DNA of 64,000 bases from an uncultured Lachnospiraceae bacterium (lineage in GTDB: Bacteria; Bacillota; Clostridia; Lachnospirales; Lachnospiraceae), in NCBI GenBank assembly GCA_944383265.1, contig CALWOX010000001.1, forward strand, positions 1-64,000. The letters run 5' to 3'. Below, in pieces: positions 37,894 through 55,400 of this stretch. Below the pieces are notes generated by a model. That model had not been told where the DNA came from, ran no database searches, and saw nothing but the letters and a program-made list of their open reading frames with translations. The first letter of the stretch is position 1. The number at the start of each line of letters is the position of its first letter. The position numbers and the translations under genes are program-made.

Positions 37894-37939
37894 GTTTCCG
37901 TAGCTCAGCAGGATAGAGCGTTCGCCTCCTAAGCGAAAG
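37894..37939 (+). pseudogene. 5' half of tRNA-Arg(CCT), cut at the anticodon
   Basis: GTTTCCG is followed by TAGCTCAGCAGGATAGAGC (acceptor strand and D arm), then TTCGC-CTCCTAA-GCGAA (anticodon stem-loop, anticodon CCT). After AAG the tRNA sequence stops: no T arm or 3' acceptor strand follows. The missing 3' half lies at 47111-47155. Confidence 0.88.
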
Positions 37940-37986
37940 AGACGTACTCACAAATGGCTCAAAATAAGGGTTTTCCGTTTAGGCGG

Positions 37987-38004
37987 TTGAGTGAAAGTGA
38001 GTGA
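37987..38004. repeat. Left-end arm repeats (GAGTGA motifs)
   Basis: TTGAGTGAAAGTGAGTGAT holds two GAGTGA motifs (starting 37987) shortly inside the left core. The same TTGAGTGAAAGT occurs at the right end (about 47042-47053). Repeated short motifs next to both cores are typical arm sites for tyrosine integrases. The role is inferred. Confidence 0.5.
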
Positions 38005-38031
38005 TAGTTAATTATAGGGACATCATTTCGA

Positions 38032-38060
38032 TTTACATGGTCTGAATGATATCCTATAAT
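38032..38060 (+). promoter_or_regulatory. Promoter of the element-borne tRNA-Arg
   Basis: TTTACA (38032-38037) and perfect TATAAT (38055-38060) have the ideal 17-base spacing. The predicted start near 38067 is about 10 bases before the mature tRNA 5' end. Confidence 0.8.
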
Positions 38061-38076
38061 AATAAAAATTGAACAT

Positions 38077-38150
38077 GTCTCAGTAGCTCAGCAGGATAGA
38101 GCGCGCGCCTCCTAAGCGCGAGGTCGGAGGTTCGAATCCTCTCTGGGACG
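38077..38150 (+). tRNA. Complete tRNA-Arg (anticodon CCT) carried by the element
   Basis: The acceptor GTCTCAG pairs with CTGGGAC (38143-38149). The D arm is intact and the anticodon stem CGCGC/GCGCG encloses CTCCTAA, so the anticodon is CCT (reads AGG). The T arm GGAGG-TTCGAAT-CCTCT is intact, and the discriminator is G. CCA is not encoded. It has the same specificity as the interrupted gene but differs in the acceptor and anticodon stems, so it is not a simple copy. It lies inside the element, between the left core and the integrase. Confidence 0.93.
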
Positions 38151-38160
38151 TTCATAGGAA

Positions 38161-39414
38161 TTACCCGACGGCTGAAAGGCTGTCGGGCTTTTCTTTTAAC
38201 ATACGGGAGCGGATATCTCCTAAGGTTCTCCTGTCTGCCAATGAGTAGTGTCTTTCATTGGTCTCAACCGAGTGCCCGAGAAGCAAAGAACGCTCTGCAG
38301 GGCTATAGCCTTCATGGATCAGCTTACTGTTGAGAGCCATGCGAAAAGCATGATTGTTGGTTGTTTCTATACCGAGGGCTCTGCAACGTTTTTTCAGGTA
38401 CTGACCATATCCGTCCTTTTTTATCCATGCTCCATCAGGATCATGAAAGACATAGGCTGAATTACCTTTCAAGGCCCTTGCAAGTTCAAGGATGTTATCA
38501 ATTTCAGGCGTTTTGGGGAACCGTCTTCCGCCATGAGGGTGTTTGCGCTCATCTTTGGTATACAAGACCTCATAGTATCTACGCTGCCCTTTTACGGTAT
38601 TATCCAGTAACTGCTGGCGATGGATATGAATATAGTTCGTTTCTATATCCTCCCATTTGAGTGAACAAAGTTCAGCGCTTCTCATACCTGTTTCAGCAGC
38701 CATGAGCATGATAAGAGCGCGAGGGTTATCGACTCTATTGAAAGCTTCTGTTTTAAGCTTATCTACTTCCTCGGGAGAAAATTCCTTTTCGTCGTCTGTC
38801 TTGATTGAATTATCACATAAGGAATAAAGGTTAGATAAATCAACAGTCAATGCAGGATTTATATAGCACCACTTCTTACGTATTCCAAAGTCAAAAATAG
38901 CTTTGGTATACTGTAATACCTTTTTTAAAGAGCCTTCTTTTGGTATCAAGGCTTTTGTGCGTTGAGCGAATAAGCGCTCAACATTTTCATCTGTGATATC
39001 ACTAAGACATTGCGATTGGAAGTTATCAGGAAAGAATTTGTCAATGACATATCTATAATCCTGAATGGTCTGAGGAGAGCGGTTTTGATTAGTCAATTTA
39101 TAGTCTAACCATGCTTCTTTAGCATACCTAAAAGTATATGAGGCTTTTTCCTGTTCCGAATAATAGGTATAAAGGGCTTCATACAGTTCTTTTTCGGTAG
39201 ACCTTAATAGCTCTTTTCTTGGATTTCCGATATAGGTCTTCCATTTTCCTGCCTTTTTTCCGTTTTCAATGTGCGTTATAGATGCTTTATGTATCTCATC
39301 TACATAAGTTTTCTTTGTGGTAAATAACATATCTTTAAAAATATCTGCATTTACCGCACCACGCTCTAATAATAGCATAATATCGGAAGTGGAGATAGAG
39401 GGGAGAGAAATCAA
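38161..39414 (-). CDS. Tyrosine recombinase (integrase) of the IME
   Basis: This site-specific recombinase is inferred to integrate the element at the tRNA-Arg anticodon loop. The protein is 417 residues. An N-terminal arm-binding region is followed by a core-binding SAM-like domain (about 95-190), then the catalytic domain. The first Arg is in TGMRSAELCSLKW. HAFR is the H-x-x-R box, and LLGHSVETNERHYSL gives the second His and the nucleophilic Tyr. The start is TTG 39414, which overlaps the TGA of the rep gene and follows GGAGGGGG, so translation is coupled to rep. It sits next to the left core, as expected. Confidence 0.93.
   Translation of the reverse strand: MISLPSISTSDIMLLLERGAVNADIFKDMLFTTKKTYVDEIHKASITHIENGKKAGKWKTYIGNPRKELLRSTEKELYEALYTYYSEQEKASYTFRYAKEAWLDYKLTNQNRSPQTIQDYRYVIDKFFPDNFQSQCLSDITDENVERLFAQRTKALIPKEGSLKKVLQYTKAIFDFGIRKKWCYINPALTVDLSNLYSLCDNSIKTDDEKEFSPEEVDKLKTEAFNRVDNPRALIMLMAAETGMRSAELCSLKWEDIETNYIHIHRQQLLDNTVKGQRRYYEVLYTKDERKHPHGGRRFPKTPEIDNILELARALKGNSAYVFHDPDGAWIKKDGYGQYLKKRCRALGIETTNNHAFRMALNSKLIHEGYSPAERSLLLGHSVETNERHYSLADRRTLGDIRSRMLKEKPDSLSAVG
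38164..38197 (+). terminator. Terminator of the element tRNA, inside the integrase 3' end
   Basis: CCCGAC and GTCGGG with GGCTGAAAGGCT between them form a strong stem (38164-38187). CTTTTCTTTT follows. On the minus strand the same bases encode the last residues of the integrase, so the tRNA and integrase units overlap tail to tail. Confidence 0.8.
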
Positions 39415-40542: not shown

Positions 40543-41952
40543 TCAATGTTTGAAATAGAAATCTTTGTGGAGTCGTAGTATGCCCTCATCATGTAGCAAA
40601 ACAAGCATTTTACCAAGATGTGCGAAATCATGAGGCTCTATGATATATTCCTTACTCTTGCTGTGCGTGCGTGTCGTCGCGTGGGCACTAACGGATATGC
40701 TTGTATTCCGTACATCATGTCTGCCAACAAGACGAGCAAGGTATTCCTGCGTGTCGCTGTCAGATGCACTTAAGACTGCAATATACTTGAAGTTAGCTAG
40801 CATAGATTTTCTCTCAGCCTGTCCATACATCATGTCAAGGTCAGCAATAGACTGAGTCAGTACCATGATCCTTACTTTTCGTTTTCGCAGTTTCCTTAGA
40901 GCCTCGGTAATCTCAAGGTGTCCAAGCGAAACAAATTCGTCCAGTGCCAATAATATAGTTTTATAATTGTCCGTGATCTTGCGTGCAGATAAGAATTCTA
41001 AAGTTTGAGCTGTGATGATGTGAAGCAGGGGAGCGTATAGTTTAAGCTTTGCATCTTCAACTACAATAAATAAGTTATGGTTTTCAAGTGATGCAGGCGT
41101 TATTGCATTCTTTCCTTCGGGAGGACGGCCTATCGATTGTTTAACAGCTTGGTTAGTTGCAAATAGCGTAATGGAAGCAGTACAGCTTTGCATGCATCCA
41201 GAAATGTTTTTCTCGTTACTACCTGCAAAGCCGTTGATATACATTATTGCAGGCGTGTATTTAGTGTTGTCTATGGCTGTAAAAAGCTGCTGCCATGAGG
41301 AGGAAATGATCTTCTCACAGATTTCAACGAAATCCAAACCCTGATGGTAAAATGCTATCAAAGATGCAATCAAAATCTTCCGTCCTTCTGATAAAAAATA
41401 GGAAGCGGCATCATCTGAATTTTTAGTAGGAGGCATTAGCAAGTAGGCAAGCTGCGACAACGCTTCGTCTTTTGCCGTATCATTATGGAACTTGTCTATC
41501 ATGCCAAATATGTTATATGGCACAGTATTTTTACCAGCAGGGTCATATATAAGTTTGTCAGGGGCAGCTACATTTTTGCAGATATCCCCTGAAATATCTA
41601 TCGTCATGAAATGCCCAGTCCACGAGCGTAATGTGGGAATTAGCAGAGCTGATGTTTTACCCAGGCCAGACCCGCCCACCACTGCTATATGACCTTCAGC
41701 TTCCGTCGGGCTATATACGACTTTACGCCCTATCAACCCGAACCGTATGCCTTTCGCCTTTTTATGCCTGGCTTTCCGAAGTGTGCCTAAAGCCTGTTTC
41801 TTTTTTCTGCCAAGTAAATTCGTGATTATATCAGATGCAGCGAAAGATAAGATAACCGCTGCTGCAATAATGATCAACATCCTATCTGTAGCTACTAAAT
41901 TATTCCATGCGGATATGCAAAAGTTTAATGTCTGTCCAAACCATTCTGCCAT
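40543..41952 (-). CDS. VirD4/TraG-type coupling protein
   Basis: This inner-membrane ATPase links the relaxase-DNA complex to a conjugation channel. The protein is about 469 residues. Two hydrophobic spans lie near the N-terminus (WFGQTLNFCISAWNN and the MLIIIAAAVILSF region). Walker A is VGGSGLGKTSALLIPTL. Walker B lies in ILLALDEFVSLGH. The later RKVRIMVLTQSIADLDMMYG is a typical TraG sensor block. ATG 41952 is chosen because it overlaps the relaxase stop (TGATG) and follows GGGGAGG. A GTG at 41961 is possible. No other T4SS gene is in this element, so it probably docks onto a helper system. Confidence 0.9.
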   Translation of the reverse strand: MAEWFGQTLNFCISAWNNLVATDRMLIIIAAAVILSFAASDIITNLLGRKKKQALGTLRKARHKKAKGIRFGLIGRKVVYSPTEAEGHIAVVGGSGLGKTSALLIPTLRSWTGHFMTIDISGDICKNVAAPDKLIYDPAGKNTVPYNIFGMIDKFHNDTAKDEALSQLAYLLMPPTKNSDDAASYFLSEGRKILIASLIAFYHQGLDFVEICEKIISSSWQQLFTAIDNTKYTPAIMYINGFAGSNEKNISGCMQSCTASITLFATNQAVKQSIGRPPEGKNAITPASLENHNLFIVVEDAKLKLYAPLLHIITAQTLEFLSARKITDNYKTILLALDEFVSLGHLEITEALRKLRKRKVRIMVLTQSIADLDMMYGQAERKSMLANFKYIAVLSASDSDTQEYLARLVGRHDVRNTSISVSAHATTRTHSKSKEYIIEPHDFAHLGKMLVLLHDEGILRLHKDFYFKH

Positions 41953-42590
41953 CAGTTCCACCTCCCCACTGAAATATCTTCATTCCGTATATTGACAGTC
42001 CAATCTCTTGTACGCCCTTCTTTAAGCTCCTTTACAGTCCTATTCCCTCCCTGCCGTCGTGTAATACCTGAGGTGATGTTCGCATCTATACCATGTTCTG
42101 ATAAGAACCTATTTAATTCGGGGTGAAAATTACGAAGCTCTCGGCGAGTGAGCACATCATTGGCACATATCTTTTCGCCACCATGTTTATTATCAGTTGA
42201 GGTCGGAATAAAACAGAAATGGAGATGTGGCTGTCCACCTTCATCGCAATGGACAATAGCCTGAATAACATTTTTCTCACCATATTTTTCGCTGAGAAAT
42301 TGATAGCAGGTCTCAAAAAACTTCCTGTGTTCATACAGCGGTAGATCTTTAGGCGCTGTTATTATCCAACCCGCCATCGTTTTTACATCCTTGCGCCTGT
42401 AACAATGAAGCTGAGCTTTCCGCTCTTTATAATAGTCAAAGCTGCTTATGCCCCTTTTTGGAGCAAGGCTATAGTTTTCTCTCGTGCGGTCATGGTCTAT
42501 ATCCTCATTGGAAGGAACCGCTATTATCCTTTCATTATGATTAAGCTGAGCCGCTACTTCGTAGTCTGCAAATTTCTGTACACTTGCCAT
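41952..42590 (-). CDS. Short MobV/Pre-type relaxase
   Basis: This 212-residue protein is of the Mob_Pre type. MASVQKFADYEVAAQLNHNER is the characteristic N-terminal block (HNER). HCDEGGQPHLHFCFIP holds the His triad for the metal ion. NRFLSEHGID follows, near the C-terminus. Most MobV relaxases are about twice as long; the C-terminal dimerisation part is absent here, so it is a minimal catalytic version. ATG 42590 follows AAAAGGAG; an upstream in-frame extension to 42734 runs through the GC-rich oriT-like region and is rejected. It is coupled to the next gene by TGATG. Confidence 0.87.
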   Translation of the reverse strand: MASVQKFADYEVAAQLNHNERIIAVPSNEDIDHDRTRENYSLAPKRGISSFDYYKERKAQLHCYRRKDVKTMAGWIITAPKDLPLYEHRKFFETCYQFLSEKYGEKNVIQAIVHCDEGGQPHLHFCFIPTSTDNKHGGEKICANDVLTRRELRNFHPELNRFLSEHGIDANITSGITRRQGGNRTVKELKEGRTRDWTVNIRNEDISVGRWN

Positions 42591-42625
42591 GTTTTTTTCT
42601 CCTTTTCTTTCTCTGGTTTTGTTCT

Positions 42626-42663
42626 GCCATATACAAGGTATGGCAGATTGTTTCCAATCTGCC
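42626..42663. other. Candidate oriT of the IME
   Basis: Two overlapping inverted repeats lie just upstream of the mob gene: GCCATA/TATGGC (42626-42644) and GGCAGATT/AATCTGCC (42642-42663). A GC-rich stretch to about 42735 stands out from its AT-rich surroundings. MobV oriTs are usually short inverted repeats next to the relaxase gene. The nick site is not identified. Confidence 0.5.
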
Positions 42664-42797
42664 ACCGCCTGCCCTTGACGGTCAGGCTTACCTTGCCGCG
42701 GGAGCACCCGCTGGACACCCCTGCCGCCCCGCATGTCTATATCTACTTTTATGATTTTCCAAAAAGCGGGGCGGAAAGGGCGGGCATTTAAGCCCGC

Positions 42798-43115: not shown

Positions 43116-43313
43116 AGCGGTGTCCTCCTTTCTTATGTATTCGCTTTAAATTATGCATGGGGGTACATAGCTATAAATTCAAAATGTAAAAGTCTAAAAA
43201 AGTGTACCTTATCGAACACTATCCCAAGACATAATTAAGATATACAAAAAAGTAGAGCTTTGAATTTTTCAAACGTTCAGAAAATAACTATATATTTATG
43301 GAGGGTTTCGATT

Positions 43314-43940
43314 ATGAAATATGGTTACGCAAGAGTCAGCAGTAAAGATCAGCAGTTAGACAGACAGATTGAGCTGATTAAAGAGGCAGGAGTAGAAGAA
43401 AGATATATTTTTTGTGATAAGGCTTCAGGTAAAGACTTTGACCGTAGGGCTTACAATACACTTGTGGGAACGCCTGTTACAGCGCCTATGCTTCGGAGAG
43501 GGGATACGCTTGTTATCTTGTCCCTCGACCGCTTAGGGCGTAATTACCAAATGATACGGCAGGAATGGGAGAAGATAACCCATGAGATAGGAGCCGACAT
43601 TGAAGTTTTAGATATGCCGATTTTGAACACATCTTCAGAAAATAATACTTTGGATAAAAGGTTTGTGTCGGATTTGGTTTTGCAGATACTTTCTTATGTA
43701 GCAGAAAAGGAAAGAAGCAGCATTAAAGAAAGGCAACGGCAGGGCATAGAGACAGCAAAATCGAAAGGTAAGAGATTTGGCCGTCCCATGATCAAAAAGC
43801 CTGAAAATTGGAATAAAGTATATCAGAGATGGCAGTCTGGAGAGATCACCGCTGTTGAAGCAATGCGTATGGCAGGGTTGCGGAAAGGGACATTTTATGC
43901 TTTTGCGAAAGCCGAAAAAGGAAAATCAGCCATACAGTAA
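43314..43940 (+). CDS. Serine recombinase (resolvase family)
   Basis: This 208-residue protein has an N-terminal catalytic domain: MKYGYARVSSKDQQLDRQ with the nucleophilic Ser, then LVILSLDRLGRNYQMI. A KERQRQGIETAKSKGKRFGRP linker leads to a C-terminal HTH (ENWNKVYQRWQSGEITAVEAMRMAG). It is the size of a resolvase/invertase, not a large serine integrase. ATG 43314 follows GGAGGG. In an element with an HUH initiator it probably resolves multimers; inversion of a segment is not excluded. Confidence 0.9.
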   Translation: MKYGYARVSSKDQQLDRQIELIKEAGVEERYIFCDKASGKDFDRRAYNTLVGTPVTAPMLRRGDTLVILSLDRLGRNYQMIRQEWEKITHEIGADIEVLDMPILNTSSENNTLDKRFVSDLVLQILSYVAEKERSSIKERQRQGIETAKSKGKRFGRPMIKKPENWNKVYQRWQSGEITAVEAMRMAGLRKGTFYAFAKAEKGKSAIQ

Positions 43941-44321: not shown

Positions 44322-45164
44322 ATGCATAAAAAGCTGTTGATTACGGCGATGATCATAAGCATGGCTGCAATGATAAATACCACGGCAATGGCTGCAGGAT
44401 GGCAGCAGAATGCAACAGGCTGGTGGTGGCAGAATGACGACGGCACATGGCCTGCAAACACATGGGTATGGCTGGACGGAAACTGGGACGGAATCGCAGA
44501 GTGCTACTATTTCGACGGTAACGGCTATATGGCAGCCAATACGACCACACCTGACGGATATACGGTAGACGCAAACGGCGCATGGACAGTAAACGGAGCC
44601 GTGCAGGTGCAACAGACAACACAGAACAATGAGCAGTCTACGTCAACAGAAAGATATACATATATCGGCGGACCCGGATATGTAGCAAATGACGGAACCC
44701 TTCACGGATCATACAATGAATCGGAAGAGGTATATAATAGCTTAAAAGCATCTGCTGTAGGCATGCACTTTTTCAGCAAGCTTAATCCGGAACATGAAAT
44801 ATATGAACGCAACGGAGATAAACTGACACTTGGATGGGAAACTCCTGTTGGCTTAGCATATGATGGACAGTGGATGATCGACAACACCAAGCCGGAAGCT
44901 CAATACGGAGTAACGAATATCCGTTATCAGTATCCTGACGGAACTTTCGCCGGATACGGATGGCATGGTTGCGGATTTGACGATGAATATATAATGTGGC
45001 GTATAAACAATTACGGCGTTGGTACTCAGGAGTATACAAAGAATAACTATTTCTTTACAGAAGACGGATACTTGGTAAGAAATGCAATCATCACAAGCGA
45101 TTACAGGATATATCCGTACATGGTCGGTATGGACGGCGGATGGCTTGATCGATCAGAATACTAA
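44322..45164 (+). CDS. Secreted wall-binding-type protein, cargo copy 1
   Basis: The protein is 280 residues. The signal peptide is MHKKLLITAMIISMAAMINT, with cleavage after TAMA. Residues 25-100 carry the aromatic module WQQNATGWWWQNDDGTWPAN, WVWLDGNWDG, CYYFDGNGYM and DGYTVDANGAWTVNG. The C-terminal domain (about 115-280) begins YIGGPGYVANDG, contains QWMIDNTKPEAQYG, IRYQYPDGTFAGYGWH and FFTEDGYLVRNA, and ends GGWLDRSEY. The module suggests attachment to wall polymers; the C-terminal domain is unrecognised. It is the first of three tandem paralogs, preceded by GAGGGAGGGG. 179 bases of the module are identical to copy 2. Confidence 0.85.
   Translation: MHKKLLITAMIISMAAMINTTAMAAGWQQNATGWWWQNDDGTWPANTWVWLDGNWDGIAECYYFDGNGYMAANTTTPDGYTVDANGAWTVNGAVQVQQTTQNNEQSTSTERYTYIGGPGYVANDGTLHGSYNESEEVYNSLKASAVGMHFFSKLNPEHEIYERNGDKLTLGWETPVGLAYDGQWMIDNTKPEAQYGVTNIRYQYPDGTFAGYGWHGCGFDDEYIMWRINNYGVGTQEYTKNNYFFTEDGYLVRNAIITSDYRIYPYMVGMDGGWLDRSEY
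44385..44563 (+). repeat. 179-bp direct repeat, copy A
   Basis: This stretch is identical base for base to 45242-45420. It covers the end of the signal peptide and the aromatic module. Flanking sequence in both genes diverges at once. Exact identity, including silent positions, implies a recent duplication or gene conversion. Confidence 0.92.
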
Positions 45165-45181
45165 TTTAATGGTGAAATGAT

Positions 45182-46057
45182 ATGAAGAAGATTATAACAT
45201 TTGCAGCGGCTTTCATGATGATGGCCGCAATGAGTATCACTGCAATGGCTGCAGGATGGCAGCAGAATGCAACAGGCTGGTGGTGGCAGAATGACGACGG
45301 CACATGGCCTGCAAACACATGGGTATGGCTGGACGGAAACTGGGACGGAATCGCAGAGTGCTACTATTTCGACGGTAACGGCTATATGGCAGCCAATACG
45401 ACCACACCTGACGGATATACCGTGGATGGCAACGGCGCATGGACCGTAAACGGAGCAGTACAGGTGCAGCAGACAAACACAGTAACGAATAACACATCTG
45501 ATAACACAAGATATACTGTAATAGGAGGTCCTACAAGAGTTGTACCTACTAACGGGCTTCAGGGAACGTATGATTTTGACAGACCACATTGGAATGATTT
45601 AAAGAATTCCGCCGAAAGCGGGGATGTATATTTTGAGTCTTACGGAGAACCTTCACATCTTTATACTTGGTACAATTATACTGAAAATGGAGAAACCTAT
45701 CGTCTCGGCGAAGATCTTCCAGGAGGAGGAGTCGGCCTTAAAAAAGAAGGACAGTGGTTAATCGATAATACGAAACCTGATGTTGAAAATGGAATATCAA
45801 ACGTAAGGTATCAATACGCTGACGGTTCATTTGCAGGTTATGGATGGCACGTAATGCCTGTAAGTGAGGAGTATTCAAAGGAATGCTCTTGGCTGTATCA
45901 TAATGATGCAAATTATCAAAAATATTCTGGGAAAGCATCTTATATGTTTTCAGAAGATGGATATCTCTATCGAAACTGTTATTTCAATAATTTCGCAGCA
46001 TATGGCCCTACAATGGTCGGATATGACGGTACCTGGCTTGATCGTATGACATTCTAA
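45182..46057 (+). CDS. Secreted wall-binding-type protein, cargo copy 2
   Basis: The protein is 291 residues. The signal peptide is MKKIITFAAAFMMMAAMSIT, cleaved after AMA. The module matches copy 1 exactly over most of its length. The C-terminal domain is homologous but clearly diverged: YTVIGGPTRVVPTNG, QWLIDNTKPDVENG, VRYQYADGSFAGYGWH, MFSEDGYLYRNC and DGTWLDRMTF. It carries an extra loop (WYNYTENGETYRLGEDLPGG). It starts 17 bases after copy 1. Its signal-peptide DNA is closer to copy 3 than to copy 1, so the gene looks like a mosaic. Confidence 0.85.
   Translation: MKKIITFAAAFMMMAAMSITAMAAGWQQNATGWWWQNDDGTWPANTWVWLDGNWDGIAECYYFDGNGYMAANTTTPDGYTVDGNGAWTVNGAVQVQQTNTVTNNTSDNTRYTVIGGPTRVVPTNGLQGTYDFDRPHWNDLKNSAESGDVYFESYGEPSHLYTWYNYTENGETYRLGEDLPGGGVGLKKEGQWLIDNTKPDVENGISNVRYQYADGSFAGYGWHVMPVSEEYSKECSWLYHNDANYQKYSGKASYMFSEDGYLYRNCYFNNFAAYGPTMVGYDGTWLDRMTF
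45242..45420 (+). repeat. 179-bp direct repeat, copy B
   Basis: This is the second copy of the block at 44385-44563, at an offset of 857 bases and in the same orientation, within cargo gene 2. Recombination between the two copies would delete one gene's worth of sequence and fuse copy 1's start to copy 2's end. Confidence 0.92.
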
Positions 46058-46089
46058 ATAAAAAAAATATAAAAGGAATGAGTAACGAT

Positions 46090-46953
46090 ATGAAGAAGAT
46101 TATAACATTTGCAGCAGCTTTCATGATGACAGCTGCAATGAGTATCACGGCTTTTGCCGGCAACGGACAGTGGCTTTCTGATGCAACAGGATGGTGGTGG
46201 TCGTACAATGACGGCGCCGGAGGGTATCCTGTAAATCAGTGGTTATGGATTGACGGCAATAATGACGGGGTATCCGAGTGCTATTACTTTGGCCCTGACG
46301 GATACATGCTCGCAAACACGACTACCCCTGACGGATATCAGGTAAATGAAAACGGAGCATGGGTAAAAGACGGAGTGGTACAGTCACATAACTTCATTCC
46401 TGACCTTGACCAAAGATATGCACCTCTTTCAGAGCTTAAGGGCGGCGAAGTAACAGATCCTTATTCTGTAAGCAAGATCACGGCAGATGAAAGTCTTATT
46501 AAGATGATGTCATCGACTCCATATGTAGGAACCGATATCCCCGAAGGATTTACCATCGGAGAAAAGCTTTATGATGAGCCAATGATGCCTCTCGCTAAGA
46601 GCGCATGGTATGAAATGAGTTACAAAGGAATAACATTCAAAGGGTTAAAAAGTGGAGTTACTCCTGCTATAAGCATTCTTTTTGGACCTGCAAAACTTTT
46701 TATAAACAACATTCCTGAACAAGGTATTGAAGTCAACGCTTTCTTTGAAAACAGTGGATTTGTAGACGGATGGAGTGATGACATGCATGTACATGGAACG
46801 ACTGGACTTATGAGTTACTACTTCGATAATCCTTCCATCAGAGCTGCAAATATTCAGCTTTCCGATAATGATATAAGTGTCGATATTGAGCTTACACAGG
46901 GGACTGATGGGAATTATTATATTTATCCTGATAGTAGAGCATTACTTCATTGA
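46090..46953 (+). CDS. Secreted wall-binding-type protein, cargo copy 3
   Basis: The protein is 287 residues from ATG 46090 (MKKIITFAAAFMMTAAMSIT, cleavage after AFA), chosen to match copy 2. An ATG at 46078 would add four residues. The aromatic module is a diverged version: WLSDATGWWWSYNDGAGGYP, WLWIDGNNDG, CYYFGPDGYM and DGYQVNENGAWVKDG. The C-terminal domain (about 105-287) shows no clear likeness to copies 1 and 2: it has GTDIPEGFTIGEKLYDEPMM and ILFGPAKLFINNIPEQG. So the array keeps the start and varies the end. It is followed by a terminator. Confidence 0.83.
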   Translation: MKKIITFAAAFMMTAAMSITAFAGNGQWLSDATGWWWSYNDGAGGYPVNQWLWIDGNNDGVSECYYFGPDGYMLANTTTPDGYQVNENGAWVKDGVVQSHNFIPDLDQRYAPLSELKGGEVTDPYSVSKITADESLIKMMSSTPYVGTDIPEGFTIGEKLYDEPMMPLAKSAWYEMSYKGITFKGLKSGVTPAISILFGPAKLFINNIPEQGIEVNAFFENSGFVDGWSDDMHVHGTTGLMSYYFDNPSIRAANIQLSDNDISVDIELTQGTDGNYYIYPDSRALLH

Positions 46954-47002: not shown

Positions 47003-47030
47003 GGATTTAAATACTTCATGATTTATAAAT

Positions 47031-47110
47031 TGAGTGAAACCTTGAGTGAAAGTATAAAATGTGGTACGGCAAATGCCCTCCTTTCTTGGTTTTCGTGAGT
47101 GATCACTCAA
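47031..47110. repeat. Right-end arm repeats and 14-bp palindrome
   Basis: TTGAGTGAAACCTTGAGTGAAAG (here read as two TTGAGTGAAA units, from 47031 and 47042) and the perfect palindrome TGAGTGATCACTCA (47096-47109) lie just inside the right core. They share the GAGTGA motif with the left end (37987-38004). Likely integrase or directionality-factor sites. Confidence 0.5.
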
Positions 47111-47155
47111 CTCCTAAGCGAAAGGCCGGCAGTTCGAATCTGCCCAGGGACGCCA
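47111..47155 (+). pseudogene. 3' half of tRNA-Arg(CCT)
   Basis: CTCCTAAGCGAA (anticodon loop and 3' stem) is followed by AGGCC, the T arm GGCAG-TTCGAAT-CTGCC, the acceptor strand CAGGGAC, discriminator G and an encoded CCA. Joined to 37894-37925 it gives a 77-base tRNA-Arg. The two acceptor strands pair poorly: GTTTCCG against CAGGGAC gives one mismatch and two G-U pairs. This strand would pair perfectly with GTCCCTG. No D arm or 5' strand is present here. Confidence 0.88.
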
Positions 47156-47162
47156 AAAACAC

Positions 47163-47206
47163 CGCTGCAAGCCGTTTTTCGCAGGTTTGCAGCGTTTATT
47201 TTTTTC
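47163..47206 (+). terminator. Terminator after the tRNA-Arg 3' half
   Basis: CGCTGCAA (47163-47170) pairs with TTGCAGCG (47187-47194), and TTTATTTTTTTC follows. This was probably the tRNA terminator. Nothing else is seen up to the integrase stop at 47343. Confidence 0.8.
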
Positions 47207-47342
47207 TTCTCCCGGATTTTTCGTTCCAATAAAGCCGGGAGAATTTTATGCGCTGCAAATGTATATCCTGCTAAGAAGAAACGAACGATTTCCACGTTCC
47301 TGCTAAGAAAAATCCTATCTTTGCTAATTGGAATTTTCGGAC

Positions 47343-48603
47343 CTACCTGCCGCCCTGTGCCGCCGAGAGCAGCGCAGCCAGGGTGTTTGCCAGTTCCGGT
47401 GACTGCCGGAGCTGTTCCACCAGGGCCTCCAGATCGAGCGTCGCCGGTGCCGGTTCCTTCGGCTCCTCCGGGGGACGAACTGCGCGCAGGTTGGGATTTG
47501 CGTAGAAGGCGCTCTCGAACTTCTGGGCGTTGATCTTGCGGTCCTCATCCAGGATATGCGCATACACGCTGGTGATCATGTCGATCTCCGCATGGCCCGT
47601 GTCACCCTGGGTGGCCTTCAGGTCGCCGTGGTTCAGTTTCAGCTTGTAGGTGGTGCTGGAATGACGGAGGGAATGAAAGACCACTCTGGGCAGCCCTGCC
47701 TTTTCCCGCAGGATGTAGGCCAGCGTCTTGGGCAGCCATACCTTGCGGATACTGGAATCGGTCTTGGGCTTTTTCAAGATCACTCTTGTGCTGGTGTTGG
47801 GAAACAGCGGCGTAAAGATGTGGTAGACATCCTTCTGCCCCAGCATCTCAATGGCCCGCTTGGAGGCCCGCGCCAGCTCCTTGTCGATGAAAACATAGGC
47901 GTTGTCATCGGCAATATCCTCGTCGGAGATGTGGACGTTGTTCCAGGTCAGGCCCAGGATCTCGCCCATGCGCAGAGAGCAGACAAAGGACAGGTTCATC
48001 GCCACATAGAGCTTGCTGTCCGTACACTGATCCAAAGCGGTGCGGATCATATCGGCGGTCCAGATGTCCCGCTTCTTGTACTCCGTTTTGGGCAGGATCA
48101 CATTTTCAAAGGGGTTCTTGGGCGATCAGCTCCCACCGTACCGCCTGCTTGAAGGCGCAGCGCAGGAGTTTGATGATCTTCTCGATGGTGGCGTTGGTGA
48201 CCAGATCCGTCTTTGCGTGATGGGTCCTGGTATTCACTGCCGGGGTTTTCTGCAGGGTCTGGATGTACTTGTCCACCACCCGCGGCGTGACCTCCTGCAC
48301 CTTCAAATCTCCAATGATGGGGTTGATGTAGTTGGAGATCAGCGAATTCTGGCTGTCGTACATGGACACGCCCCACTTCTTTTCCCCATAGAGAGAAACA
48401 AAGTCCAAAAGAAATTCTGCGATGGTCTGGTTGCTGGGCGGAAGGAAGGTCCCCGTGAACTGCTGGTTCTCCACCTCCGCTTTGCGCTTCAATGCGTCCT
48501 GGTAAGAGGTGCGGGTCTCCCATTTCTGCCGGGTCTCACCGTTCTCGTCCGTATAGTTGTAGACGATGGAATAATTCTTTTTCCGTTTGATAATTGATGC
48601 CAT
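47343..48603 (-). pseudogene. int: Tyrosine integrase of element 2, frameshifted
   Basis: The N-terminal part (48603-48106, 165 residues) has the three-stranded arm-binding domain (KRKKNYSIVYNYTDENGETR) and the start of the core-binding domain. It ends WELIAQEPL then stop. The C-terminal part continues in another frame from about NPFENVILPKTEYKKRDIW (near 48110) to 47343. It has CSLRMGEILGLTW, VVFHSLRHSSTTY and the GDTGHAEIDMITSVYAH box with the Tyr. One extra C in the GCCCAAG stretch near 48120 explains the break: GCC AAG AAC CCC TTT would read through. Repaired length is about 420 residues, Tn916-Int-like. It could be a real mutation or a sequencing error. Confidence 0.85.
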
Positions 48604-48623
48604 AGCGATACTTCCTTTCTAAG

Positions 48624-48830
48624 TCATAGGTCGAGCGACTCCAGCCACTCATCGAATGACCGCTTGGAAATCCGTATGGCGTTGCCAATTCGTACGATCT
48701 TGAAGTGTCCTTCCTTCACGAGAAGATAAGCGGATGTGCGGCCAATACCCAGGATCTGAGTAATGTCCTCTACCGTATAGGTTCTACGTTCCGGGGACTC
48801 CTTCTTCGTACCGTTCCATGCTTGCGACAT
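48624..48830 (-). CDS. xis: Excisionase-like small HTH protein
   Basis: The protein is 68 residues, with YTVEDITQILGIGRTSAYLLVKEGHFKIVRIGNAIRI (given here in part), the MerR-like winged helix (HTH_17) of Tn916-type excisionases, then SKRSFDEWLESLDL. It lies 20 bases upstream of the integrase in the same direction, the usual xis-int arrangement. It would direct excision; with the integrase frameshifted this may be lost. Confidence 0.87.
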   Translation of the reverse strand: MSQAWNGTKKESPERRTYTVEDITQILGIGRTSAYLLVKEGHFKIVRIGNAIRISKRSFDEWLESLDL

Positions 48831-49352
48831 GGCAGCCCCCTTTCTAAAACAAGAACGGCGCGTAGAAGGAAGGTCATAATTTGCCTATCCTCATTTTAAC
48901 GCGCCATTCCGGGTTTGTCTGCTGCTAATCGAAAAGTTTACGAACTATCCATAAACTCAAAGCAACAGGATTTGCTTAAAAAGAGAGAGGCAGAAAACGG
49001 ACGGCTGCTGGCACAGCTCCACGGGAATTTCACCCCGGCCCATGCTGATGGGTGCGGCGCACGATGCTTTGCGGGCGTCCAATGCGCGAGTCTCATTATC
49101 CTGCCTGCGTATCCTCGCCCACAGGCTGCCACACCTGTTTTACGATCCGGTTTTGTCGCTCACCTGTTTAGCAGGGGTCCCGTCCTGCGGACTTGCAACA
49201 GGGTCTTGGCGCACCGGACGACCGGCTCCACGCAGACAGATCGTATCCGTCTGCCTTATACTGCACCGGAGGCCTCCCGCCGGGCTTTCTTTGTCAAGGA
49301 GCTATACAGGGGCACCGCATGGAAAGGTGGACACGCAGCGCTCGGTCCTGGA
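48831..49352. other. 522-base stretch without a convincing gene
   Basis: Open frames exist on both strands, but none shows recognisable motifs with a proper ribosome site. An inverted repeat GGCGCGT/ACGCGCC spans about 48855-48905, near the xis start. A plus-strand frame near 48915-49030 reads KQQDLLKKREAENGRLLAQL, helical and protein-like, then loses sense. It may be a gene remnant. GC is high throughout. Confidence 0.4.
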
Positions 49353-49604
49353 TCAGTTCAGGTCAAAATCCAGGATGGAAATAATCAGCTTTGCTTCCAG
49401 CCGACCGCGCAGATCTTCGTCCACCTGGGGACGGGGATAGCCGTCAGGGCCATAGCTCGTCCGTGTAGACAGCGCGGCGATGTAGCCGGAGTAATGCCGG
49501 ACTACCCGGCTCACCGCTTCGGGGTCTCCCCCGACAGCGGCGGCGATCACCGGGTAAGGGATCAGCGATGCCCGCGTGCACGCAGATTTAGTCATCCGCT
49601 TCAC
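49353..49604 (-). CDS. Tn916 orf8-like HTH protein
   Basis: The protein is 83 residues: LIPYPVIAAAVGGDPEAVSRVVRHYSGYIAAL, then DGYPRPQVDEDLRGRLEAKLI (given in part). This is the conserved pattern of the small helix-turn-helix protein next to the sigma-like gene in Tn916-type elements. It overlaps that gene's 3' end by 17 bases. A role in controlling transfer genes is inferred from Tn916. Confidence 0.82.
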   Translation of the reverse strand: MKRMTKSACTRASLIPYPVIAAAVGGDPEAVSRVVRHYSGYIAALSTRTSYGPDGYPRPQVDEDLRGRLEAKLIISILDFDLN

Positions 49605-49908
49605 CTCCCATCAGCTCCTTCAGCAGCCGATAGGCTTTATGCCTGCGGGTGTTGACCGTCCGGCGGGCCTTATCCATGTACTTGGAGATCTGTTCATCGG
49701 TCATCCGCAGGAACCAGTGCATCATAAAGATTTCCCGGTCCTCCTGGGACAGCCCCGGAAGCGCCTCGGACAGCTCCTCCAAAGACGCGAAACACTTCTG
49801 GCGTCGGCTGATCTGGCGATAGCCGTTGCACGCCTCGCATTTCAGCACCTTCTTGCAGTAGCTGTCAAAGGCGTACTGCTTGTGCTCGTAGTGGCGGTCA
49901 GGTTTCAA
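49588..49908 (-). CDS. Tn916 orf7-like sigma-70 family factor
   Basis: This 106-residue protein resembles a short sigma region 4: FASLEELSEALPGLSQEDREIFMMHWFLRMTDEQISKYM, then ARRTVNTRRHKAYRLLKEL (given in part), with a Cys pair (CKKVLKCEAC) before it. The start is TTG 49908, because GGGAGGTGAG lies just upstream. Longer frames to 50109 read through non-coding-looking sequence. In Tn916 its homolog drives transfer-gene expression. An ACTCGT/ACGAGT palindrome (49964-49977) lies upstream. Confidence 0.8.
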   Translation of the reverse strand: MKPDRHYEHKQYAFDSYCKKVLKCEACNGYRQISRRQKCFASLEELSEALPGLSQEDREIFMMHWFLRMTDEQISKYMDKARRTVNTRRHKAYRLLKELMGGEADD

Positions 49909-50027
49909 GTTCTCACCTCCCTTCGTGCCGGGAGGCAGTTCTTTTCTTCCCCTTTCGCTCACTACTCGTTCACGAGTGGTCCGGTTTGGCCGGTTTTCGG
50001 GATCTATCTGAAAAAATTTTTTGCCGC

Positions 50028-50240
50028 TCACACTTGGCTCCTTTCGTTTCGTTCGGGTTGATAGGCCGGAACGAAACGGGGCGGGGAGCGGTAGCCCACG
50101 CCCAGGCACTCAAAGAGACGGGGTTTGCGAAATATGAGCCACATTATATAAAAAGCGAGCCACGACTCACTTTCATGAGCGTGGCTCGCTGTTGCGTTAT
50201 TGGTATATTTTTCGTAGTGGCATGGGCGTCCGCCGTACAA
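50028..50240 (-). CDS. Possible leader peptide overlapping an attenuator
   Basis: This frame of up to 70 residues reads through HYEKYTNNATASHAHESESW and CLGVGYRSPPRFV. I have an impression of similar short peptides upstream of regulated genes on Firmicutes elements, but cannot confirm it. A terminator hairpin (50146-50190) lies inside it. The start is uncertain: AAAGGAGG at about 50265 has no well-placed ATG. Coding status is unproven. Confidence 0.3.
   Translation of the reverse strand: MYGGRPCHYEKYTNNATASHAHESESWLAFYIMWLIFRKPRLFECLGVGYRSPPRFVPAYQPERNERSQV
50146..50190 (-). terminator. Hairpin terminator/attenuator upstream of the sigma-like gene
   Basis: On the minus strand AGCGAGCCACG (complement of 50180-50190) and CGTGGCTCGCT (50154-50164) form a perfect 11-bp stem. 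TTTTATATAATG follows. It would end minus-strand transcripts before the sigma-like gene unless read through, as in the attenuation control of Tn916. Confidence 0.7.
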
Positions 50241-50313
50241 ACGGTAAACCCCGCCTTATTTTGACCTCCTTTGTGTTGGCACTCTCATCCATATCTCCCT
50301 TTACTCCGAAATA

Positions 50314-50327
50314 TGAGTTATAACTCA
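50314..50327. promoter_or_regulatory. Palindromic operator candidate upstream of the HTH gene
   Basis: TGAGTTATAACTCA is a perfect 14-bp palindrome, 71 bases before the HTH gene start. Related ATGAG motifs occur on both sides (ATGAGCCAC at about 50134). It lies between divergent units and is a natural site for the adjacent HTH regulator. Confidence 0.45.
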
Positions 50328-50397
50328 CTTTACATAAGTTTTATGGTTATTTATATGAGCGGAAGCACACCCTACAATGATGTAGAGGTGATGTGCA

Positions 50398-50727
50398 GTG
50401 AACAATCCGCTGGATCTATTTGCATGGAAGGTGCGGTCAGAACGGAAGCGGCAGCATCTGACGCAGAAGCAGTTGGCTGAACGCCTCGGTATGAACCCCC
50501 GCACGATCATAGATTTGGAGACCTGCCAGAGTAATCCGAAATTTGAAACGGTGGTCCTTGTCGCCAAAGAATTGAATATCAGCGTGGACGCCGCCATCTT
50601 CCCGGAAATGGTAAATCAGACAGTCTCGAAAACAGTCGTGGACTTCTTTGCCGGGAAAAGCGAAGCAGAGATCGAAAAATTTATCGCGCTCTGCAAACAG
50701 GCGGAAGCCTTCCAGAAAGACGAGTAA
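50398..50727 (+). CDS. XRE-family HTH regulator of element 2
   Basis: The protein is 109 residues. The N-terminal HTH is LDLFAWKVRSERKRQHLTQKQLAERLGM with NPRTIIDLETCQSNPKFET (given in parts). A tail DFFAGKSEAEIEKFIALCKQAEAF follows. The start is GTG 50398 after AGAGGTGATG. This type is common in the regulatory block of Tn916-like elements. It is convergent with the DtxR-family gene. Confidence 0.87.
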   Translation: MNNPLDLFAWKVRSERKRQHLTQKQLAERLGMNPRTIIDLETCQSNPKFETVVLVAKELNISVDAAIFPEMVNQTVSKTVVDFFAGKSEAEIEKFIALCKQAEAFQKDE

Positions 50728-50759
50728 CGCGGTCGGGTTCGATGTGCCCGGCCGCGTTA
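50725..50759. terminator. Terminator between convergent HTH and DtxR genes
   Basis: TAACGCGG and CCGCGTTA with inner CGGG/CCCG form a strong stem starting in the stop codon of the HTH gene (50725-50759). No clear T run follows on plus. It lies between convergent genes and may serve both. Confidence 0.6.
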
Positions 50760-50788
50760 CTGTTTCACCCGTTTGCTATGCGGGCAGT

Positions 50789-51160
50789 TTATTCTTCTTT
50801 TGTTTTGTAAGCATTTTTCAGATGCTCGAAGGACTCCTGGCTGATGACATGCTCCATCCGGCAGGCGTCCCTTTCCGCCGTTTCCGGGTCTACGCCGGCC
50901 TCGATCAGCCGGTCGGTAAAGAAGCGGTGCTTTTCGTAGATCTGCTCCGCCACTTCCCGGCCCACATCGGTCAGGTGCAGGAAATAGTCGCTGTCCATCG
51001 TCAGGAAGCCCCCGTCCCGCAGGGTCGCCACCGCATGGCACACGCTTGGCTTGGACACTTCCAGGCGCCGGGCGACATCCACGGAGCGCACCATGCCTTT
51101 TTCTTTTTGCAGCATCAGCACAGCCTCTAAATAGTCCTCGCCCGACGCATGAATCTTCAT
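50789..51160 (-). CDS. DtxR/MntR-family metal-dependent repressor
   Basis: The protein is about 123 residues. The N-terminal winged helix has MKIHASGEDYLEAVLMLQKE and VDVARRLEVSKPSVCHAVATL. The dimerisation and metal domain has HLTDVGREVAEQIYEKHRFFTDRLIEAG with the metal ligands around CRMEHVISQESFEHL. There is no SH3-like third domain, so it is MntR-sized. ATG 51160 is chosen; a GTG at 51172 right after the upstream stop is possible. It is last in the uptake operon. DtxR-box-like palindromes in front of the island operons (55309, 60482) make it the likely iron or manganese sensor. Confidence 0.88.
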   Translation of the reverse strand: MKIHASGEDYLEAVLMLQKEKGMVRSVDVARRLEVSKPSVCHAVATLRDGGFLTMDSDYFLHLTDVGREVAEQIYEKHRFFTDRLIEAGVDPETAERDACRMEHVISQESFEHLKNAYKTKEE

Positions 51161-51172
51161 TCTATCACCCAC

Positions 51173-51760
51173 TCACATAATCCCAGCATTTGCAAACTGC
51201 TTGTTGTAAACCTTTTTTGCAATAACTCCGACAATTATTGAGATAACTACGGTTGCGGCAATAGCAAGAACCATAAACCACGGAGAAGTCAAGGTTGATA
51301 ATATCTCAGCATAATTTGCAGACATTTCTTCGGATGCCTCTGAAATGGCATAGTCAGAGAATACCCATACATACAACGGAGAACCGATATTGCTTAACGA
51401 AAGCAGGATATAACTCATCATGATACCTTTGTAATTCTTATATCCGGCCCATTTCCGAATGATTTCCGCTAAAATAGAACAAGCAATCAAGCTCCCAAGC
51501 AATAGATTCGCAAGCTCCCCAAAAGCCACGAAAGCGATTGCTACAAATAGGTTCATAATGAGAACCACGCCTGCTTTCGGCACTTTTGCCATAACATACA
51601 TATATGGAAGCCATGCCACGAGAGCAATTAAAGCTGTTACAAACAGATAGAGCAATGGGTGTATGCCGCCCATAATCGTAGCTGCCAAAACCACAGCAAA
51701 GTAAATAACGGAAAATACGATTGTCAGACCTAAATCTTTTAAATTCCAGTGTTGTTCCAT
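51173..51760 (-). CDS. MptD/Trep_Strep-type membrane protein (putative ECF S component)
   Basis: The protein is 195 residues with five to six membrane spans. It starts LKDLGLTIVFSVIYFAVVLAA and contains GGIHPLLYLFVTALIALVAWLPYMYV. It has the features of the Trep_Strep/MptD family, predicted substrate-specific components of ECF-type vitamin or metal transporters. No ECF ATPase or T component is seen in the window, so a partner is missing or shared. It is less GC-rich than its neighbours. It lies in the operon between the ABC pair and the DtxR regulator. Confidence 0.75.
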   Translation of the reverse strand: MEQHWNLKDLGLTIVFSVIYFAVVLAATIMGGIHPLLYLFVTALIALVAWLPYMYVMAKVPKAGVVLIMNLFVAIAFVAFGELANLLLGSLIACSILAEIIRKWAGYKNYKGIMMSYILLSLSNIGSPLYVWVFSDYAISEASEEMSANYAEILSTLTSPWFMVLAIAATVVISIIVGVIAKKVYNKQFANAGIM

Positions 51761-51772
51761 AAGATTTCCTTT

Positions 51773-53491
51773 CTATTTTCCTTGCTGTAATTCAACAAGG
51801 TGTGCATATAGACCGCCCTTTTTCATCAGCTCAGCGGGTGTACCCATCTCACTGACCTTGCCATCATCCAGAACAACGATCTTATCAGCATTTGCCACTG
51901 TCCTCATGCGATGGGCAATCAACATGACCGTCTTATCCTTCAGCAACACCGACAAGGCATCCTGCACCAGCGTTTCACTCTCGGCGTCCATAGAGGCAGT
52001 TGCTTCATCAAGCAGGACAATGGGAGCATTTTTCAGCAGAGCGCGGGCAATCGAAATGCGCTGACGCTCGCCGCCAGACAGGGCGCTGCCGTTTTCCCCG
52101 ATGTTCGTCTGATACCCTTGGGGCAGGCGCTGGATAAATTCCTCGCATTGGGCGGCTCTGGCCGCAGCCATCACTTCCTCATCGGTGGCGTCGCCCCGGC
52201 CCAGCCGGATATTCTCCATGACCGTCTCATCAAAGAGCATGACATCCTGGAACACAATGGCATAGTTCTTGAACAGCGTTTCCGGTTCGACCGTTTTGAC
52301 ATCCACACCGCCCAAGGTAATGGTTCCGGAGTCCGCATCCCAAAAGCGGGCCGCCAGTTTGGAGGCGGTGGACTTGCCGCTGCCAGACGGGCCTACCAGC
52401 GCCGTGACCTCGCCCTGCTTTGCCACAAAAGACACGCCCTTCAAAACCGGCTCCTCATTGTAAGAGAACACCACATTCTTAAACTCAATATCGTAGCCCT
52501 TGTTATTGCAGACATTGGTTCCAGTCTGCTCCGGGGTCGCGTCAATCTGTTTCATTCGCTTGACGCTGACAAGGGAGGAAAATACTTCCGCCATCAGCAT
52601 GAAGCAACTGGTGAAGGGGTCATAAATGCGGCCGGCAAACAGCAGGAACAGGATGAACATGGGGATGGACAACGAACCGGCTGTCACCAGAATGCCTCCC
52701 ACCAGCATAACCGCCACAAGGCCAAACCGAAGGATGAATTGAGCCGTAGTTGTAGCGGCACCGGGAGCGATCTCGTTGCGGAAGGAACACTTCACCACAT
52801 AATCCAGCTTCTTTTCCAGCCCTTCCAGGTATTCTTTTTCACGGGAGCAGGACTTCAGCTCCTGGATGGTGTCGAGATATTCCTGTACACCGTCATAGGC
52901 AGCTCTTTTGGCATCCATGTTGGCGCTCTCGGCATTGGACTGGGCTTTCTTTGCCGCAAAGACTACCAGGGCCGCCACAGGCACCGGCACTACAATGCAA
53001 AGGCCCATCCGCCAGTCAAGCGCCAGAAGGCCGATGGCCGTTATAATAAACATGAAGATTGTTCCGAAGAGCTGCGGGATCGCATTGGAGAATACGCGCT
53101 CCAGGGCTGTGCAGTCCCCCATGATGGTGGTGGTCAGATCAGAAAGGTCACGCTGGCCGAAGAAGGAAAGCGGCAGCTTTCGCAGCTTCTCCGCCAGGAC
53201 GATCCGGCGGTTGGCGCTTTCCTCATAAGCCACGGTATAAGTTTTGTTGTACTGGAGCCACTGGGTCAGAAACACAATGATAAACATGACCACTGTACCG
53301 CAAATAAACAAGGCTGCATGATCCCGCATACTGCTTTCCTGCCCGGAAATCACATTCAGCAGTTCCCATATCACCATGACCAGCAGGCTGACCGGAGCAA
53401 TCAGGCACAGATTGCTGAGGGTAGTGGCCGCAATTCCTTTGTTCAAATCTCTTGAGCCCTGATCGCTCAGGGCAAACATTCGTTTCAGCAT
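51773..53491 (-). CDS. ABC half-transporter (permease-ATPase fusion), second of pair
   Basis: The protein is 572 residues. An N-terminal six-span ABC type-I membrane domain (about 20-310) is followed by the ATPase: Walker A GPSGSGKST, Q-loop VFQDVMLFD, signature LSGGERQRISIA, Walker B IVLLDEATASMD and switch IAHRMRT. It overlaps the partner gene by 7 bases, so the two probably form a heterodimer. In DtxR/AraC-controlled islands such pairs (YbtP/YbtQ, IrtA/IrtB) import metal-siderophore complexes despite an exporter fold. That role is inferred from context. A close relative begins at the right edge of the window. Confidence 0.87.
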   Translation of the reverse strand: MLKRMFALSDQGSRDLNKGIAATTLSNLCLIAPVSLLVMVIWELLNVISGQESSMRDHAALFICGTVVMFIIVFLTQWLQYNKTYTVAYEESANRRIVLAEKLRKLPLSFFGQRDLSDLTTTIMGDCTALERVFSNAIPQLFGTIFMFIITAIGLLALDWRMGLCIVVPVPVAALVVFAAKKAQSNAESANMDAKRAAYDGVQEYLDTIQELKSCSREKEYLEGLEKKLDYVVKCSFRNEIAPGAATTTAQFILRFGLVAVMLVGGILVTAGSLSIPMFILFLLFAGRIYDPFTSCFMLMAEVFSSLVSVKRMKQIDATPEQTGTNVCNNKGYDIEFKNVVFSYNEEPVLKGVSFVAKQGEVTALVGPSGSGKSTASKLAARFWDADSGTITLGGVDVKTVEPETLFKNYAIVFQDVMLFDETVMENIRLGRGDATDEEVMAAARAAQCEEFIQRLPQGYQTNIGENGSALSGGERQRISIARALLKNAPIVLLDEATASMDAESETLVQDALSVLLKDKTVMLIAHRMRTVANADKIVVLDDGKVSEMGTPAELMKKGGLYAHLVELQQGK

Positions 53492-55395: not shown

Positions 55396-55400
55396 AGAGA

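Follow-up and report, generated by a model that had tools for sequence, protein, structure and literature searches.

A host gene for tRNA-Arg(CCT) in an uncultured Lachnospiraceae bacterium is broken within its anticodon loop by inserted DNA that carries a complete tRNA-Arg(CCT) of its own. The inserted DNA comprises two elements, the smaller of which (A) sits inside the replacement tRNA of the larger (B). Our analyses of the window (the whole stretch of 64,000 nucleotides, positions 1 to 64,000 of contig 1) and of other genomes identified the element-free form of the site, and the layout of a half gene followed by a complete tRNA of the same isotype recurs in numerous lineages. We are highly confident in the account proposed here, namely that the element that splits the gene supplies its replacement and that successive elements would take over that role in series.

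The split host gene and the tRNA inside the insertion

The host tRNA-Arg(CCT) gene is broken within its seven-nucleotide anticodon loop CTCCTAA (core 37926-37932). The tRNA sense of the 5' half (37894-37932) ends past the anticodon stem, where the left junction continues as non-tRNA sequence, and the host 3' half is displaced by 39 kb to contig 1:76942-76983, on the same contig and outside the 64-kb window. The sequence CTCCTAAGCGAAAG is common to the host 5' half (37894-37932) and the displaced 3' half at contig 1:76942, and at the right junctions non-tRNA sequence precedes each 3' half (contig 1:76942 and 47111). When the two host halves are joined, 7/7 acceptor and 5/5 anticodon stem positions are paired (12/12), and the product is the intact gene of the same-genus genomes G007, G011 and G017. 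The features of the locus are as follows.

37894..37939, + strand: 5' half of the host tRNA-Arg(CCT), attL of the insertion; identity with the displaced 3' half extends up to 37939
37940..38076, + strand: left arm (P') of element A, containing the tRNA promoter and, at 37987-37996, a putative arm site TTGAGTGAAA
38032..38060, + strand: promoter-like TTTACA-17-TATAAT before the carried tRNA, 11/12 consensus bases
38077..38150, + strand: complete replacement tRNA-Arg(CCT) of element A (ARAGORN tRNA-Arg(cct) at 38076-38151; Rfam tRNA, 65.5 bits)
38164..38197, + strand: terminator-like hairpin and T tail (10-pair stem with T tail at 38164-38187), overlapping the integrase 3' end
38161..39414, - strand: tyrosine recombinase, integrase A, 417 aa (Pfam Phage_integrase, 2.4e-12; PHROG 1 integrase, 4.1e-38)
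40543..41961, - strand: coupling protein of TraG/VirD4 type, element A (Pfam T4SS-DNA_transf, 1.5e-32; under the NCBIfam cut-offs)
41952..42734, - strand: short MobV/Mob_Pre-type relaxase domain, element A (Pfam Mob_Pre, 6.1e-26; 96.6 bits, the NCBIfam cut-off being 100)
43260..43940, + strand: serine resolvase/invertase-type protein, element A (Pfam Resolvase, 2.4e-25)
44322..46953, + strand: three consecutive ORFs, cargo of element A, with starts alike by eye
47030..47110, + strand: right arm (P) of element A, with TTGAGTGAAA at 47030-47039 and 47042-47051 and the palindrome TGAGTGATCACTCA at 47096-47109
47111..47155, + strand: 3' half (with CCA) of element B's replacement tRNA-Arg(CCT), split by A; identical to the 3' half in G241
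47343..48603, - strand: integrase B in two frames, the frame changing near 48110-48119; 72-73% identity to the G241 integrase across the two frames
47111..64000, no strand assigned: part of element B in the window, with ABC transporters, a relaxase (61821-63254) and an AraC-type regulator (60625-61596)

A first-pass annotation of this DNA had described a complete tRNA-Arg(CCT) at 38077-38150 with the anticodon of the broken gene, and both statements stand, as ARAGORN and Rfam agree on the gene and its isotype is that of the split tRNA. It is alone in having a CCT anticodon among the 45 tRNA genes found in the genome assembly (97.5% complete), whose other tRNA-Arg genes have TCT, ACG and CCG anticodons. 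The further claim that it is not a duplicated host copy was borne out on a wider scale, the broken and carried 5' halves being identical in just 11 of 67 distinct junctions.

Examination of same-genus genomes identified the site without the element. In G007, G011 and G020, and also in G017, which bears a relic, there is an intact gene of the host type and one complete CCT tRNA by pattern, which is of that type. The flank upstream of the host 5' half is shared over ~1 kb with G017, whose tRNA is intact, and G021, whose tRNA is split, and partly with G011. The flank to the right of the displaced 3' half provides no independent support, since its same-genus match is confined to the tRNA piece. 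The relic in G017 (L100, G017:C75, 13600-15900) is of a related element, with ~2.2 kb between the tRNA pieces; its carried tRNA is without its 5' half, only the 3' half being left, and the host tRNA is intact. On the evidence of sequence, the host gene of our bacterium was split and the tRNA at 38077 arrived with the insertion.

The C-terminus of the integrase points towards the 3' end of an intact tRNA, as is usual in classical tDNA islands, and it could be proposed that the intact tRNA at 38077 belongs to the host and had its 3' end restored on integration (restoration as described in PMC4383910), that the element lies to its right and that the upstream half is debris. We consider this very improbable, as the half at contig 1:76942 pairs at 12/12 positions with the upstream half, as against only 8/12 for the corresponding half of the 38077 gene, the intact gene of the sister genomes equals the upstream half plus the displaced half, and the shared host flank precedes the half gene and not the 38077 gene. 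An island that restores its target from a tRNA fragment in attP was rejected as a candidate on the pairing and the empty sites.

G021, which is of the same genus, is informative about the signals around the carried tRNA. The window stretch 37953-39399 (arm, tRNA and integrase) is 86.5% identical in G021, in which the carried tRNA is 100% identical and the host flank 72%. Both promoter hexamers, the whole tRNA and the hairpin are conserved there and nearby bases differ; the G021 copy of integrase A is disrupted. The rest of element A has no match in G021 within 8 kb up to the contig end, and since only 37953-39399 matches, the arm, tRNA and integrase suggest a module with exchangeable cargo. 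The promoter that the first-pass annotation had placed at 38032-38060 has 11 of the 12 consensus bases and hexamers conserved in G021, and the terminator that it had nested in the integrase 3' end does overlap that end, its hairpin being conserved. The consensus matches are nevertheless weak on their own, because shuffles of 37800-38300 give 0.8 promoter-like sites (3 observed) and 0.4 terminator-like sites (1 observed).

Elements A and B and their nesting

Element A spans 37926-47110 (9,185 bp), and its integrase faces the carried tRNA. The exact 10-mer TTGAGTGAAA has three copies in the window, one in the left arm and two in the right arm of A, and these fit what would be expected of integrase arm sites; with one mismatch allowed, there are 9 copies against 6.4 expected, which is not above chance. 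The palindrome TGAGTGATCACTCA ends one base short of the core at the right end of A. That right end recurs in G019 (94.8% identity over 96 bp), where it adjoins a different tRNA 3' half.

No match to head or tail families was found in PHROGs for eight proteins (six of A's ten listed ORFs and two of B), and in place of the head/tail match of a temperate phage, A has a relaxase and a coupling protein. We regard A as a small integrative element with conjugation-type genes. An IME would have an integrase and a relaxase of its own but no complete T4SS, and the six of A's ten ORFs that were searched include an integrase, a short MobV-type relaxase domain and a coupling protein. A choline-binding repeat (Pfam Choline_bind_2) and a match to an endolysin family of PHROG occur in the first of the three cargo ORFs and in neither of the others.

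A second 3' half at 47111-47152, absent from the first-pass annotation, divides the inserted DNA into two elements. It is the 3' half of the complete tRNA in a B-type element of G241 (L122/L228), with homology continuing beyond it, and it pairs at 12/12 positions with the 5' half of the G241 tRNA and at 11/12 with that of the host. Because this half matches a B-type tRNA and its left neighbor is the recurrent right end of A, A sits inside B's replacement tRNA. The additional 3' half at 47111, together with the recurrence of A's right end, led us to reject a single 39-kb element.

Element B extends from 47111 to contig 1:76941 (29,831 bp, ~30 kb), and its right end recurs in G232 (L331), where it also adjoins a 3' half. 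B looks to have been acquired from another lineage. Its GC content is 52.8% against 39.7% in the host stretch, and several ABC transporters and a relaxase are present. Since its integrase spans two frames, B may have lost autonomous movement.

B's 5' half and left spacer are absent at the locus, and therefore one extra rearrangement must be assumed. The simplest reading is that they would have been lost by recombination between two direct core copies, before or after A's arrival. Two observations in other genomes may be mentioned here. In G185 (L138/L337, G185:C1:1583739) a complete tRNA with 5/7 acceptor pairs looks joined from two different copies, and in G094 an orphan 3' half (L320, G094:C1:6765220) lies between two others, comparable to the missing 5' half of B.

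We propose that integrase A recombines within the anticodon loop of tRNA-Arg(CCT). As attP shares little beyond that loop, insertion would split the tRNA without restoring it, and this would be why the element carries, 144 bp in from its left end, a whole tRNA-Arg(CCT) equipped with a promoter and a terminator. The carried tRNA would take over the job of the split gene and, because the same core lies within it, would itself be the next attachment site. In the present locus the host gene would first have been broken by B, which brought a tRNA of its own, and A would later have split that tRNA. Repeated in many lineages, such events would produce arrays of 5' halves ending in one intact, newest copy, with 3' halves beyond the elements.

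Recurrence, arrays and diversity of the elements

The layout of a tRNA beside a split tRNA, described in the first-pass annotation for this locus, recurs widely in other Lachnospiraceae. A search for 5' halves in 299 genomes of the family identified 43 places in 36 genomes, and of the 30 places read, 27 are true halves and three are complete tRNAs. A complete tRNA-Arg(CCT) follows on the same strand in 22/22 halves with usable downstream sequence, there being too little of it in the other five of the 27. In the genome_contigs set, at least 118 loci were found and, among the matches listed, 104/118 are true halves and 14/118 complete tRNAs; a complete tRNA-Arg(CCT) follows in 59 of the 61 listed halves with at least 500 bp downstream. 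The downstream sequence is short in 43 of the 104 halves among the matches listed, nine of which still show a complete copy, and the distance from half to complete copy is 73-643 bp (median 114; 68 pairs among the listed matches). The two exceptions are L248, with just a damaged tRNA remnant where the complete copy is expected, and L282, where additional tRNA starts follow and the sequence ends within the last of them. In a Chromatiales contig counted among the short ones (L257), the CCT tRNA lies on the opposite strand, and this locus is possibly unrelated. Because the two sets share some entries (e.g., G196/L212 and G165/L264), their counts were not added.

A half with a complete copy was identified in Hungatella hathewayi, Fusicatenibacter saccharivorans, Ruminococcus sp. 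FMBCY1, Faecalibacterium sp. I4-1-79, Oliverpabstia intestinalis, Caproicibacter fermentans and uncultured Bacilli. Among 29 genomes with a split gene, the pattern finds one complete CCT gene in 25, two in three and none in one, and in the latter a divergent copy was found by ARAGORN. A solitary tRNA-Arg(CCT) that is 95% identical to that of A, with no half gene seen and with AbiE-like ORFs (by eye) next to it, was observed in G003 (L106, G003:C86).

After de-duplication there were 118 arrays (equal to the number of loci by coincidence), containing up to four half genes. In all 64 arrays with a complete copy by pattern, that copy is last, preceded by one half in 46 arrays, two in 12, three in five and four in one. 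The pattern finds no complete tRNA in the other 54 arrays, of which at least two (L118 and L260) hold one by ARAGORN.

Displaced 3' halves were sought in 23 genomes, none being found in six (G029, G061, G165, G310, G269 and G241), and 17, the window's own included, were tested for pairing. At least one displaced 3' half pairs at 12/12 positions with a broken 5' half in 16 of the 17; G330 fails, with 7/7 acceptor and 3/5 anticodon stem pairs. G196 and G129 are uninformative because their broken and intact 5' parts are identical, and in G152, G166, G021 and G063 the 3' half is on a different contig. The order of halves could be followed in three genomes. In G016 the first 3' half past the newest element is compatible with just one of three 5' halves, the innermost, and in G336 a 3' half at a distance of 68 kb is compatible with the outer of two 5' halves and not with the other. 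The single 6.9-Mb contig of G094 has three 3' halves, of which the nearest matches the inner 5' half alone and the farthest suits the outer 5' half and the intact copy equally well; the one between them is an orphan. In this small sample the displaced 3' halves appear to support nesting, albeit not in every genome.

The elements that share this layout are diverse. BLAST linkage of the 67 distinct junctions gave 37 unrelated spacer families, and searches with five query integrases identified tyrosine recombinases of several types in 22 of 75 loci, at a distance of up to 6 kb from the carried tRNA; many of the remaining loci are short. The layout has probably arisen or been exchanged more than once, because there are 37 spacer families and several recombinase types. 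In G057 an integrase-like ORF (by eye) is at the opposite end.

Relatives of integrase A were found in 16 of the 299 family genomes, the window's own included, and the 15 others mostly adjoin tRNA-Leu (e.g., L093-L095), tRNA-Gly or tRNA-Ala. No 5' half was found near the ten relatives tested (0/10), which speaks against our account. One relative (L089, 57% identity over 79 aa, with one stop) adjoins an intact tRNA-Arg(CCT) with no 5' half nearby, another (L082, 44% identity) is on a contig whose end begins with CTCCTAA and a tRNA 3' half, and no tRNA was seen beside L087. Among annotated records only distant integrases were matched by integrase A, 19 of phages (25.8% identity for the best-ranked) and one of a plasmid (24.9%).

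In the viral_contigs set, 36 loci have a complete CCT tRNA, and in two of them, L177 and L185, a core copy lies close before it in a position that fits the layout; in L177 that copy is a 5' half. In 33 of the 36 loci no core copy was found within 900 bp, and in L197 it lies 629 bp upstream of the CCT tRNA. The core of L185, which is without a tRNA half, lies 91 bp before the core of the complete tRNA-Arg(CCT), as would be expected for attP in the uninserted form, and its contig has amidase-like and ParA-like ORFs (by eye).

Role of the carried tRNA and relation to known systems

The carried tRNAs were recognized by ARAGORN or a tRNA pattern, a procedure that favors well-folded copies. Of 47 distinct carried tRNAs, 42 share one register, and in these 875 of the 882 stem cells are paired; the count excludes four whose register is shifted and one that is short. 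Compensated changes were found in the acceptor stem, the anticodon stem and the T stem. A terminator-like hairpin was found downstream of 33 of 58 carried tRNAs, against 11% of shuffles. Promoter-like sites precede 15 of 63 at a threshold of at least 9/12 bases (8.6% of shuffles) and 10 of 63 at one of at least 10/12 (1.1% of shuffles), a modest enrichment that is less clear than that of the terminators; the shuffles in both counts preserve single-base composition only. The carried tRNAs of L205, L215 and L129 have a different scaffold (TTAGTTAAATGGATATAA D arm), unlike the rest, and many spacers end near the tRNA in a AAATTNAATA-like motif (by eye).

An alternative is that the carried tRNA persists chiefly because it renews the landing site, as an intact attB, and that its role in translation is minor, since tRNA-Arg(UCU) could read AGG. 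The last position of the complete copy in all 64 arrays, the later hit on B's carried tRNA in the window and the presence of tRNA-Arg(TCT) are consistent with that idea. An attB should need just the core and its close surroundings, yet the acceptor and T stems are conserved with compensated changes, the scaffolds of L205, L215 and L129 are divergent, hairpins far exceed the shuffles and a renewed site is of no obvious benefit to the resident element. We therefore consider a mere landing site unlikely.

The phenomenon of tRNA genes carried by phages and mobile elements is a common one, and the carried tRNA could likewise be cargo that aids translation of the element's own genes. AGG accounts, however, for only 9.9 codons per 1000 in A and 5.8 in B, compared with 12.9 in the host stretch, and the tRNA found beside the half gene is a complete one of the split isotype in 22/22 readable loci of the family and, among the matches listed in genome_contigs, in 59/61, so that this explanation has next to no credibility for us.

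Replacement of the split gene remains our preferred reading, in which the carried tRNA would be expressed, would complement the lost function and would make the host dependent on the element. Of the 508 codons for arginine in the host stretch, 146 are AGG. tRNA-Arg(TCT) may read AGG by wobble and, since it is present, losing CCT may merely slow AGG decoding.

The closest known system is tRNA-dependent lysogeny, established in actinobacteriophages (Guerrero-Bustamante and Hatfull 2024, PMC10865867). As described there, the phages resemble the present elements in having a tyrosine integrase and an attB within a tRNA gene, in a short core by which that gene is not rebuilt and in carrying a tRNA of the same isotype. 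The mark of that system that the disrupted gene be the only one of its isotype is also found here, with no other CCT among 45 tRNA genes. A further mark, an essential disrupted tRNA whose carried counterpart is required for survival after integration, would have to be reconciled here with the presence of tRNA-Arg(TCT). That system (PMC10865867) is one of phages, whereas here there are elements with a relaxase and coupling protein, mostly in Clostridia. Targets named in that paper include tRNA-Lys(TTT), Ile2(CAT) and Leu(CAA), and the term tRNA-Arg is absent from its text. Here, in contrast to the phages of that account, the target is tRNA-Arg(CCT), the core is the anticodon loop and insertions are stacked in natural genomes. 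The phage system has genetic proof according to the same paper, while ours is known from sequence alone. The present system would seem to work like tRNA-dependent lysogeny, although A, by the genes searched, does not appear to be a phage. The speculation in PMC10865867 that a carried tRNA might act as a second attB is matched by A inside B's tRNA, an instance of that arrangement in a natural genome.

Related cases have been described in prophages. The Lj965 prophage of Lactobacillus johnsonii is said to leave its tRNA unrebuilt and to carry the cognate tRNA, which is the same principle, but in a prophage (PMC10865867). In Sinorhizobium meliloti, phage-related sequences are reported in which a host tRNA gene is replaced by an introduced tRNA of the same isoacceptor (PMC11476347), and phiLM21-like prophages are reported to restore the tRNA (PMC12429752); these are alphaproteobacterial prophages, and nested arrays do not feature in the descriptions consulted (PMC11476347, PMC12429752). 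Among the 2083 tDNA islands of Islander, crossover centered on the anticodon is common (PMC4383910). Those islands resemble ours in their tyrosine integrases and anticodon-centered crossover, but a tRNA fragment in attP restores their target, whereas the target here stays broken (PMC4383910). Because the target is not restored, an Islander-type search would probably miss or misplace these elements. When ICEs and IMEs accrete, elements arrive one after another at a shared site through an att site of the resident (PMC5704250), whereas here the newcomer splits the resident's replacement gene.

The first-pass annotation had considered this combination little described. We agree only partly, since mycobacteriophages were shown in 2024 to follow the same principle (PMC10865867). 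Among the titles and abstracts searched, we found no report of a tRNA-replacing insertion in integrative or conjugative elements or in Clostridia. What is new is its occurrence in conjugation-type elements mostly in Clostridia, the anticodon-loop split of tRNA-Arg(CCT), the high recurrence and the serial takeover; what was known is the principle in phages.

We lean somewhat, and with considerable reservation, towards a broader view in which unrelated elements of Clostridia and some Bacilli compete for the anticodon loop of tRNA-Arg(CCU). Each newcomer would break the working gene and supply the sole copy in the cell, so that the newest element would own this part of AGG decoding, would be protected against imprecise loss and would be the next landing site, the array being a chronology of takeovers. 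If this is true, mobile DNA repeatedly takes over a translation gene, and a "core" tRNA is often not the host's own. The arrays of half genes would then represent an ordered record of successive insertions at a single site. In addition, the principle known from phages would extend to conjugation-type elements, and the dependence of a host on its element would become testable.
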